From Caldivirga sp. (GTDB taxonomy: Archaea; Thermoproteota; Thermoprotei; Thermoproteales; Thermocladiaceae), in assembly GCF_023256255.1 (NCBI RefSeq), contig NZ_JAGDXD010000022.1, positions 1-36,512 on the forward strand: DNA of 36,512 nt, in the 5' to 3' direction. The translations under genes and the position numbers were made by a program. This document shows positions 9,419-12,635 of the stretch, piece after piece; the first letter of the stretch is position 1; every line of letters begins with the position of its first letter. The notes beneath the pieces are model-generated. The model was not told the DNA's origin, did not search any database, and was given only the letters and a program-made list of their open reading frames with translations.

Positions 9419-10468
9419 TTAACCGTGAATCATCCTTATTATCCTCCTGTACTTTAAGTAGAGGGAGTAGTCTATGTAAACCTTATCCTCAAGCATCTCG
9501 CTGATTGTCCTAGCTAACTTAACCTTACCTGGCAATTGATCGGTGGTTTCAATGTAGAATGCGTTGGATCCTGCGCCGCTACCGAAGGTGACTACGATTA
9601 TTCTTGAACCAGGCTTAGCCTCCTCAAGAACCTTAGCTAGCCCTAATAAGGCTGAGGCATTGTAAGTGTTACCTATTAAGTCAACAACAATACCTGGCTT
9701 AACCTTCTCAAGTGGGAAACCCAACATTTGGGCAACCCTCACCGGGAACCTGGCATTAGGCTGGTGGAAAACCGCGTAATCGAAGTCACTCGGCTTCATA
9801 CCTAACTCATCCATTAACCCCTTAGCGGCACCCATTATGTGCTTGAAGTAGGCTGGCTCCCCCGTGAAACCCTCGCCGTGAACCGGATACGGTGAACCAT
9901 CCCTCCTCCAGAAGTCAGGTGTATCGGATGCGTATGGGTAAGTGTACTTAATTTCAGCAGCCAGGTTACTTGAACCAATAATGTACGCAACCGCACCAGT
10001 ACCCACGGTATACTCCAGGTGTTCCCCTGGTTCACCCTGGGATGAGTCCGTACCGACAGCTATACCGTACTTTATTGAATTAGCCTTAACCAGGCCCATT
10101 AGGTTAATTATTGCGTCTGAACCAGCCTTACAGGCAAACTCCATGTCCACTGAGTAAACCTGCCTACTTAAGCCGAGCGCATCAATTAATATTGATGATA
10201 TTGGCTTAACGGCGTATGGCTTCGACTCCGTCCCAGCGAAGACGGCGCCAACTTCACTTGGCTTCACCCCAGCTCTAGTTAAAGCATCCCTAGATGCCTC
10301 AACAGCCATGGTTACTGGGTCCTCATCAATGTACCCAACAGCCTTCTCCTCAACAAGGTACATGTCCCTTATCCTGAGGGCATCATCCCCCCATGCCTCC
10401 GCTATTTCACGGGTCTTAATCCTGTACCTCGGTATGTAGGCGCCCCAACCAACTATGCCTACCGCCAT
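9419..10468 (-). CDS. Hydroxymethylglutaryl-CoA synthase
   Basis: 350 residues from the ATG at 10468. It condenses acetyl-CoA with acetoacetyl-CoA in the mevalonate pathway for archaeal lipids. Seen: [15 protein letters not shown] at the start, [12 protein letters not shown] with the catalytic Glu, [13 protein letters not shown] with nucleophile Cys113, and [10 protein letters not shown] with His235. [15 protein letters not shown] closes the fold. It is third in an operon with a thiolase homologue and a DUF35 protein; the ATG shares its A with the DUF35 stop (TGATG), so translation is coupled. In Methanothermococcus the three proteins form one complex that channels acetoacetyl-CoA. A start at GTG 10477 would overlap further and is less likely. 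Confidence 0.93.
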
Positions 10469-10881
10469 CACCAACACCCCTTCACTGGCCTTAACTTAAA
10501 GCCGTAGTAAATTATACCGTAGTCACTGTCCTCCTTAACCCTCCTGAAAACTACCTCAACCTCAGTGTTATCACTAAGCTTCTCTGGATTGGGGCAGTCA
10601 ACCAATTGCCCAAGTACCCTAACTCCATTCAAGTCAACTATACCGAATATTAATGGCCTCTGCTTCTCGAAGTCTGACGTGACGCTCCTAAGCACAGTGA
10701 ATTCAATTAACTTACCCCTCCTCGGTAACTCAACTTCATCAAACTCCCTTGAACCACATTCGCAAACAGCCCTAGGTGGGAAGTAAACCCTGCCGCATTT
10801 CCTGCATTTAAGGGCGGTAAGCCTATAGTACTGTGGTATCCTCCTCCAGTATTTTGGTACTGATAGGGATTGGTCAACCAT
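10468..10881 (-). CDS. DUF35 OB-fold/zinc-ribbon protein of thiolase-HMGCS complex
   Basis: 137 residues: a helical lead-in ([15 protein letters not shown]), a zinc ribbon with Cys26, Cys29, Cys40 and Cys42 ([12 protein letters not shown] ... VCECGS), then an OB-fold ([14 protein letters not shown] ... [21 protein letters not shown]). This is the standard DUF35 layout. In the characterised archaeal complex the protein bridges thiolase and HMG-CoA synthase and shares the CoA site. It starts one base after the thiolase stop and overlaps the HMG-CoA synthase ATG by one base. Confidence 0.92.
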
Positions 10882-10882
10882 A

Positions 10883-12025
10883 CTACTTCACCACCTTAAG
10901 CATGAAGACTACGCTCTCCTGATCCACACCAACCATGTCCTCAACCACAGCAGCCTCGGCGTTTAAGCCATTAAATGGTTTATCACCCCTAAGCTGCATT
11001 GTTACGCTGGCTAACTGGTAAACACCTGAAGCACCCATTGAATTACCCACTGCCTTTAAACCACCATCTAAGTTAACCATAACCTTACCCCCTGGATCAA
11101 AGTAACCCTCATTAAGGAGCCTTAACGCACTACCCCTCTTACATAACCCCAGGGACTCCAAAGCCAGGACTCCAAGTATACTATATGTGTCGTGGACGCT
11201 TACTATGCCGTTGAAATCATTAAGTGGGTTAAGTGCCTTAACAGCCTCAGTAACTGACATTAGCACAGTGTAGTCGTTCCTAGATGCGAAGTATGAGTTT
11301 GATGCACCGAAACCATAGCCCAATACACCCACTGCCTGATCCTTGGAGTTGGGCTTACTGCATAGTACTAGGGCTGCTGCACCATCGACGAAGGGTGAGA
11401 CATCGTAGAGCCTTAATGGATCGGCCACAAGCTCTGAGTCAAGTACATCCTTTAACTTAGCTGCCTTCTTAAAGTAGGCGAAGGGTGTTTTTGATCCCCT
11501 CTCATGCATTTTAATAGCCCATGTAGCTAAGTCCTCGTACTTATACTCGTAACTCCTCATGTACTGCTTAGCCATTAACGCAGCTAAGACTACTGGGGTT
11601 GCCCCGAAGTATGATTCATAGTCGGAGTCAAGTAGATATGATGCATACTTATTCTGCTTAAGCGAGGTGACTTCATGGGGCTTATCAACGCCAACCAGTA
11701 GTACGCATCCATCATTCATTGATGCCACGTGGTTTAACGCAACCATGAACGCGAAACCCCCTGAACCATCACCATTCTCCACCCTTATGGATGGCGCATT
11801 CCTAATGCCTGAATAATCCCTGAGGACATTACCTATCGCCATTTGCTCCCCGGCTAGTTCAGAGAGAGCGGATGCAATGTAGATTGCCTTAATGTCGGGG
11901 TTACCTGCGGATTCAAGGGCCTTTAAAGCAGCCTCGGCGAATAATTCCCTATAACCCTTATCGTAGTATCTACCTGGAGGGATAATGTGTACTCCATTTA
12001 TATAGCCTAATGCCGAAATGCTCAT
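10883..12025 (-). CDS. Thiolase-fold protein lacking catalytic Cys (acetoacetyl-CoA thiolase position)
   Basis: 380 residues with a thiolase fold and the position of acetoacetyl-CoA thiolase in the operon. The nucleophile segment, normally E-x-x-C-A-S-G/S, reads RVENGDGSGG at 81-90, with Asp86 where Cys should be. The C-terminal GHP-G-A motif reads GNSMGASG at 327-334, with Asn328 for His. The third site, HDTYSI with His278, is kept. The C-terminal Gly-rich segment NLDGGLKAVG is kept too. It therefore cannot work by the normal thiolase mechanism; it may be a scaffold, or act on a preformed acyl-CoA. TTTATTAAGC at 12047-12056 is the probable TATA box of this three-gene operon. Confidence 0.85.
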   Translation of the reverse strand: MSISALGYINGVHIIPPGRYYDKGYRELFAEAALKALESAGNPDIKAIYIASALSELAGEQMAIGNVLRDYSGIRNAPSIRVENGDGSGGFAFMVALNHVASMNDGCVLLVGVDKPHEVTSLKQNKYASYLLDSDYESYFGATPVVLAALMAKQYMRSYEYKYEDLATWAIKMHERGSKTPFAYFKKAAKLKDVLDSELVADPLRLYDVSPFVDGAAALVLCSKPNSKDQAVGVLGYGFGASNSYFASRNDYTVLMSVTEAVKALNPLNDFNGIVSVHDTYSILGVLALESLGLCKRGSALRLLNEGYFDPGGKVMVNLDGGLKAVGNSMGASGVYQLASVTMQLRGDKPFNGLNAEAAVVEDMVGVDQESVVFMLKVVK

Positions 12026-12042: not shown

Positions 12043-12060
12043 TAAAGCTTAATAAATATT
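12043..12060 (-). promoter_or_regulatory. Promoter of thiolase-DUF35-HMGCS operon
   Basis: An AT-only stretch (minus strand AATATTTATTAAGCTTTATG) is centred about 25 bases before the ATG at 12025, consistent with a TATA box and a leaderless operon mRNA. Confidence 0.5.
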
Positions 12061-12182
12061 ACACCGTGCTTAAAACAAGACACCATTATGGTGTTAACGC
12101 TAATTAAAGTTCAATGTGCATTATCGTGAAGCATCAGTTCAGTAAACCTTAAAAGTTAAACGCAAAAATAGTGTGTTTACAT

Positions 12183-12635
12183 ATGGTTAGTGTTCATGGT
12201 TTCATGATTGGAAGAAGCCTAGTTCTCGGTGATGCTGAACCAGCCTTAACAATACCTTCAATATACGTTACTGATGATGTAGGCAATACTAGAATTAAGA
12301 AGGCCATTAACGAGACTGGGGGTGACTTAGTGTTATCGAGTTACGTTAAGTTACCCGTCAGGGATAAGGCTGTTGAGTCAAGTGTACTTAACTTAACGGG
12401 TAACGTTAGTAACATTACTACACTCATCAATGAGTTAATTAGGGTTAGTAAACTAACCGTAGTTATCGTTGGTTGGCAACCTGATAAGGGGTGGTCAACA
12501 ACCCCTCTCTTCACCAGTGAATTAAGTGTAATTAGGAATAAGGTTAAGGCATTTGCCTCCCTATTCCCTCACGACGTGTTTGAGTTAAGTGATAGGTACA
12601 TTTACGTACTGTACATTAATCATCCCTCAGGCTAA
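12183..12635 (+). CDS. Hypothetical protein, 150 residues
   Basis: No family recognised. The protein has alternating hydrophobic strands and helices (GDLVLSSYVKLPVRD, SKLTVVIVGWQPDKGW, DVFELSDRYIYVLYI), like part of an alpha/beta domain, but no binding-loop motif. No signal peptide. ATG at 12183 is chosen over GTG 12171, as TTAAAAGTT at about 12150-12158 is roughly 28 bases upstream of it. Its end overlaps the convergent endonuclease V gene by nine bases. Confidence 0.5.
   Translation: MVSVHGFMIGRSLVLGDAEPALTIPSIYVTDDVGNTRIKKAINETGGDLVLSSYVKLPVRDKAVESSVLNLTGNVSNITTLINELIRVSKLTVVIVGWQPDKGWSTTPLFTSELSVIRNKVKAFASLFPHDVFELSDRYIYVLYINHPSG

Follow-up and report, generated by a model that had tools for sequence, protein, structure and literature searches.

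A thiolase homologue without the catalytic Cys and GHP His in the HMG-CoA synthase operon of Caldivirga, probably kept as a structural, CoA-pocket-sharing subunit

In the archaeal mevalonate complex as it is described, acetoacetyl-CoA is channelled from a thiolase to HMG-CoA synthase (HMGCS), and the step expected of this thiolase is the first one of isoprenoid (membrane lipid) synthesis. In the genome of a Caldivirga sp. (2.07 Mb, 97% complete), the operon for such a complex is found on contig C22, of which a stretch of 36,512 nucleotides (the window) was analysed. The operon gene that occupies the place of the thiolase encodes a homologue with two of the three catalytic positions replaced. 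This locus raises the questions of what such a protein does next to HMG-CoA synthase and of where the acetoacetyl-CoA comes from.

Operon layout and catalytic positions

The three genes and their key residues, all on the minus strand, are as follows.

12049..12056, minus strand: putative TATA-like element TTTATTAA, roughly 25 nt before the start codon of the pseudothiolase gene
10883..12025, minus strand: pseudothiolase (SCP2-type archaeal thiolase homologue), 380 aa, ATG start, first gene of the operon
11768..11770, minus strand: Asp86 codon GAT, on the catalytic Cys (Cys85 of the Methanothermococcus thermolithotrophicus thiolase)
11192..11194, minus strand: His278 codon CAC, HD motif, the sole kept one of the three catalytic positions
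11042..11044, minus strand: Asn328 codon AAT, at the GHP His position
10468..10881, minus strand: DUF35 protein (zf-ChsH2 zinc ribbon and OB fold), 1-nt gap after the pseudothiolase gene
9419..10477, minus strand: archaeal HMG-CoA synthase, TGATG overlap with the DUF35 gene
10130..10132, minus strand: codon of Cys116, the nucleophile of HMG-CoA synthase (numbered from the GTG start); the residue is the same in 94/94 homologues

The HMG-CoA synthase exceeded the cut-offs of NF003274 and TIGR00748 and had 6esq_I as its best PDB relative, while the best PDB match of the DUF35 protein was 6esq_E. For the HMG-CoA synthase, the ATG at 10468 is a likelier start than the GTG. In a Pfam search, the pseudothiolase matched PF22691 (Thiolase_C_1) and PF00108 (Thiolase_N). 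The NCBIfam archaeal thiolase models also matched it, all below their cut-offs (NF004720, 286.8 versus 420 bits; NF053570, 206.4 bits versus a curated cut-off of 600). Among named organisms, those nearest to this genome are Caldivirga sp. UBA161, whose homologue of the pseudothiolase is 95% identical, and Caldivirga sp. MU80, with 86% identity. The plus strand across 10883-12025 contained many stops. Judging from its position, the putative TATA-like element would make the pseudothiolase the promoter-proximal gene. Upstream of the operon and on the opposite strand (12171-12635, plus strand) is a 154-aa ORF without a Pfam match.

The residues were mapped by alignment to solved thiolases and about 80 relatives. 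The nucleophile segment reads VENGDGSGG in Caldivirga versus VEAACASGG where the nucleophilic Cys is present, and Thr280 replaces the Cys of the SCP2 "HDCF" motif, which reads HDTY (278-281) in Caldivirga. No substitute Cys aligned with the active site in these alignments, as Cys107, Cys222 and Cys296 all fall outside the active-site motifs. An earlier note on this DNA had described a thiolase homologue without catalytic Cys and His, next to DUF35 in an HMG-CoA synthase operon. The alignments with archaeal thiolases place Asp86, His278 and Asn328 exactly as it had numbered them, and the three-gene operon, with profile matches for both partners, was found as described.

The AlphaFold2 model of the pseudothiolase had a mean pLDDT of 95.4, and its best fold match was the 6et9/6esq thiolase chain (TM-score 0.92, 1.9 Å, 30% identity). 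Among solved relatives ranked by sequence, a Pyrococcus thiolase was first and 6ESQ second. The predicted fold is that of a thiolase and agrees with 6ET9, the structure of the thiolase from the archaeal complex.

Conservation and selection across Thermoproteota

The search for HMG-CoA synthase covered 45 Thermoproteales genomes together with a range of others from the class and phylum, and operon neighbourhoods were taken from a sample of the matches. The genus names used for the genomes of relatives and for the g-codes are inferred. Caldivirga, g2, g3, Pyrobaculum and Thermoproteus all share the gene order thiolase homologue-DUF35-HMGCS. Vulcanisaeta differs: its Asp-type thiolase homologue adjoins the DUF35 gene (L067 and L068 of G013; L069 and L070 of G016) and the HMG-CoA synthase gene lies hundreds of kb from this pair. 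That the pair is kept without HMG-CoA synthase fits the expectation for one functional unit. Both partners are intact: His238 of HMG-CoA synthase, like Cys116, is invariant in 94/94 sequences, and the four zinc Cys of DUF35 are invariant in 89/89.

Asp was found at position 86 in 32 of the 33 full Thermoproteales sequences and in 32/32 of those from the two main families; the remaining sequence, from G025, comes from a different family and has Cys, HD and GHP all in place. Asp also stands in place of Cys in all nine Sulfolobaceae sequences. The GHP His is replaced by Asn in Caldivirga, Pyrobaculum and Thermoproteus, by Phe in Vulcanisaeta and g3, and by Tyr in g2, a sister genus in which the HD His is Ser or Cys. 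The search of Thermoproteales for the same substitutions, which the earlier note had proposed, thus found Asp86 nearly throughout and a state at position 328 that differs by genus. The Cys is replaced by Glu in putative Aeropyrum, Acidilobus and Ignicoccus genomes and by Leu in a putative Pyrolobus genome, and the position is occupied by Ser, Thr, Ala, Gly, Gln, Asp or Glu in other Thermoproteota lineages. Cys is kept in Thermofilum-like genomes and other members of the class, as well as in five f14 genomes and three others in which the thiolase lies outside the operon. In these f14 genomes (putative Staphylothermus and Thermosphaera; L112, L113, L114, L115 and L131), HMGCS-DUF35 is followed by an HMG-CoA reductase-like gene, and the Cys-bearing complex-type thiolase sits elsewhere in the genome.

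On a thiolase gene tree built without the catalytic columns, the Cys state changed at least three times on the starred branches and five times on the best tree. A single origin of all Cys losses is unsupported by these changes, of which long branches blur the exact number. Within the large Cys-less clade, position 86 is Asp or Glu in 36/38 sequences and Leu or Gln in the two other members. The catalytic positions vary separately (D/E/L/Q; H/S/C/R/Y; N/F/Y/H/E) around an invariant core of K115, H174, D214, G215, D279, N318, G321, G322, K324 and G327.

The dN/dS values of the pseudothiolase between Caldivirga species were 0.024, 0.037 and 0.056, similar to those of HMG-CoA synthase (0.030-0.033); these are simple Nei-Gojobori counts, and the most distant Caldivirga pair is near saturation. 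Values of 0.02-0.06, together with conservation of Asp86 across the clade, rule out a decayed gene or a sequencing error. The earlier view that the frame is intact and not decayed is therefore borne out by purifying selection (0.024-0.056) and by Asp86 in 32/32 sequences.

The strict invariance of Asp86 and the preference for Asp or Glu in 36/38 members of the clade suggest that this position has some specific role, and invariance over 41 sequences from two orders keeps new chemistry or ligand sensing among the readings to be weighed. For new chemistry, the acyl-CoA site would have been rebuilt around the conserved carboxylate, so that Asp86 and His278 carry a new catalytic activity on acyl-CoAs (e.g., retro-aldol cleavage, decarboxylation or hydrolysis), acting on the substrate or product of HMG-CoA synthase in the crenarchaeal mevalonate complex. 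The retention of H174, D279 and K324 speaks for such an enzyme, as does the finding that the DUF35-linked, nucleophile-less homologues Ltp2 and Sal (Gly there) are active aldolases (PMC12329534). However, where steroid aldolases have a Tyr as the base in their YD[HC][FY] motif (PMC12329534), the Caldivirga protein has His (HDTY). Neither g2 nor G128 (putative Pyrolobus) keeps His278, and two clade members carry Leu or Gln in place of the nucleophile, so that the clade has no catalytic set in common. No gene of a new pathway adjoins the operon, whose partner is HMG-CoA synthase. With variation at each of the three catalytic positions inside the Cys-less clade, shared new chemistry is unlikely. 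A steroid-type aldolase was rejected, as its catalytic Tyr motif is unmatched. Of the different acyl-CoA reaction that the earlier note had offered as an alternative, the steroid retro-aldolase part thus falls, and other new activity is kept as an unlikely rival.

For ligand sensing, the protein would be a regulatory subunit: acetyl-CoA, acetoacetyl-CoA or HMG-CoA would bind at its dead site and HMG-CoA synthase would be tuned in response, Asp86 either mimicking the bound acyl group or repelling acylation. An intact fold, the retention of most of the glycine-rich active-site loops (N318, GG321-322, K324 and G327) and the strong preference for an acidic residue at position 86 would fit such a subunit. 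We regard it as quite improbable, given that it differs at several positions of the pocket motifs from what Cys-bearing homologues conserve.

Source of acetoacetyl-CoA

Exactly one other thiolase was detected in the Caldivirga genome, a canonical acetyl-CoA acetyltransferase (contig C13, 3380-4567, minus strand), which is the only Cys-bearing one found. It is intact, with CSSG, NEAF, GHP and CHGTGG motifs (C/NH/H/C). The complete Caldivirga genome G001 likewise has two Thiolase_N matches, and homologues of the canonical enzyme, 62-74% identical, are present in the sampled genomes of g2, g3, Vulcanisaeta, Pyrobaculum and Thermoproteus. The second, Cys-containing thiolase whose existence the earlier note had raised is therefore at hand in Caldivirga. 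Its gene adjoins matches to ribosomal proteins S7 and L22 (L038:1955-4567), away from the mevalonate genes.

Among the 79 genomes compared, a canonical thiolase, as defined by TIGR01930, was found in 39/45 of those whose complex-type subunit is Cys-less versus 1/34 of those in which it bears Cys (Fisher p 5e-15, kinship ignored), and the catalytic residues are kept in 18/18 sampled canonical thiolases. The best HMGCS tree shows nine changes of the Cys state, with only two independent pairs on well-supported branches. Since the p value ignores kinship and the independent events are few, the data suggest, but do not prove, an association of Cys loss with a separate canonical thiolase across Thermoproteota.

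Six Cys-less genomes lack a canonical thiolase, and five of these contain another Cys-bearing SCP2-type thiolase. In the sixth, G113, no Cys-bearing thiolase was found with PF00108, TIGR01930 or NF004720, and none was found in PF00108 searches of G173 and G239, which belong to the same family. These Fervidicoccaceae-type genomes (f30; L198:5334-6491, L217 and L218) keep HMG-CoA synthase, and their second thiolase homologue reads NTSGSGG (Ser), as does ST0096 of Sulfolobus tokodaii (4YZO). The pairing of Cys loss with another Cys-bearing thiolase thus has a real exception in Fervidicoccaceae. A different arrangement is seen in G322 (L222, L223 and L229), which has a Glu-type pseudothiolase in the operon and two Cys-bearing SCP2-type thiolases; one of the latter groups with Ignisphaera-like complex-type thiolases, a possible intermediate state.

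These observations also bear on whether the Caldivirga protein is itself a working acetoacetyl-CoA thiolase with non-canonical residues. Its place in the operon is that of a thiolase, its HD His is kept, and it has Cys-less relatives in Fervidicoccaceae, a family whose examined genomes yielded no Cys-bearing thiolase. Nevertheless, the nucleophile and the GHP His are both gone, replacement of the equivalent Cys88 of PhlC by Ala or Ser abolished activity (PMC6392133), and a complete canonical thiolase is encoded in the same Caldivirga genome. Retained thiolase activity is accordingly very unlikely.

The 4-hydroxybutyrate CO2-fixation cycle is another route that produces acetoacetyl-CoA. Searches of Caldivirga, g2 and g3 gave no match to its 4-hydroxybutyryl-CoA dehydratase (PF11794), which is also listed as absent from C. 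maquilingensis, a heterotroph (PMC12794621). The missing dehydratase rules out this cycle as a general supply, though it may help in Sulfolobaceae, Pyrolobus, Ignicoccus and Thermoproteus.

As an adaptor, the pseudothiolase might also bring the canonical thiolase to HMG-CoA synthase and let channelling continue with the replacement enzyme. That Cys loss accompanies a canonical thiolase, and that the 62-74% identical canonical enzymes occur in all five of the sampled relatives named above, would agree with an adaptor. We give it only the slimmest chance, as there is no sequence sign of an interaction and the canonical thiolase gene lies apart, near the ribosomal protein genes.

Probable role and comparison with known systems

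A protein that has lost its catalytic residues and is nonetheless tightly conserved has probably been retained for a structural role, as a part of the complex that holds CoA. As expected of a pseudoenzyme subunit with a PhlA-like role (see below), the catalytic residues were lost under purifying selection and those of the HMGCS partner were kept. We therefore consider it probable that the pseudothiolase is kept as a structural subunit that shares the CoA pocket, and that a separate canonical thiolase makes acetoacetyl-CoA. The thiolase subunit of the thiolase/DUF35/HMG-CoA synthase complex would have lost its thiolase chemistry and become a pseudoenzyme, and the acetyl-CoA acetyltransferase of contig C13 would make acetoacetyl-CoA. 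The pseudothiolase would most likely still assemble with DUF35 and HMG-CoA synthase, holding the complex together, and most likely supply its share of a three-protein CoA pocket, at which the externally made acetoacetyl-CoA may dock for HMG-CoA synthase. The pocket is known from 6ESQ, where the three proteins together form the interface at which CoA binds (PMC6392133; PMC12329534). For Caldivirga, we infer complex assembly, CoA docking and the absence of thiolase activity from these lines of evidence. The earlier proposal of a structural member of the complex, with acetoacetyl-CoA coming from another thiolase, is thus well supported, although unproven, by the C13 thiolase, the association across genomes and the invariant HMGCS residues and DUF35 Cys.

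Were the thiolase subunit catalytically dead in Thermoproteales, Sulfolobales and several other lineages, the channel could not work there as described and HMG-CoA synthase would have to be fed from outside. An enzyme would then have become a scaffold repeatedly, its partner and its replacement both being identified, and database names such as "acetyl-CoA acetyltransferase" would be wrong for the Cys-less genes. The thiolase/DUF35/HMG-CoA synthase complex itself is already known. No report of Cys-less complex-type thiolases, or of a repeatedly lost, dead thiolase subunit across the phylum, surfaced in the literature searched, a search that lay outside the primary paper (Vögeli et al., 2018).

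The closest known system is the M. thermolithotrophicus complex (6ESQ and 6ET9), which has the same three-gene set and provides the best or second-best solved relative of each Caldivirga partner. In contrast to its thiolase, the Caldivirga protein has Asp86 for Cys85, Asn328 for the GHP His and Thr280 for the Cys of HDCF. ST0096 of S. tokodaii (28% identity) is also an archaeal SCP2-type fold with the nucleophile missing, but it keeps HD and GHP, and its relatives in Fervidicoccaceae lie apart from the HMGCS operon. Ltp2-ChsH2 (6OK1) and Sal-Shy (9MYR) likewise combine a thiolase fold without the nucleophilic Cys with a DUF35 partner. These steroid aldolases use the Tyr of YDHF/YDCY, whereas the Caldivirga protein has HDTY and HMG-CoA synthase as its neighbour. 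Finally, the diacetylphloroglucinol acyltransferase PhlABC (5M3K) consists of HMGCS-like, DUF35 and thiolase subunits (PMC6392133). Its HMGCS-like subunit PhlA has lost the Cys (replaced by Gly115) and the Glu, and yet the complex needs PhlA (PMC6392133). In PhlABC, PhlA is dead and the thiolase PhlC is active; the Caldivirga complex, in which the reverse probably applies, would be its mirror image.
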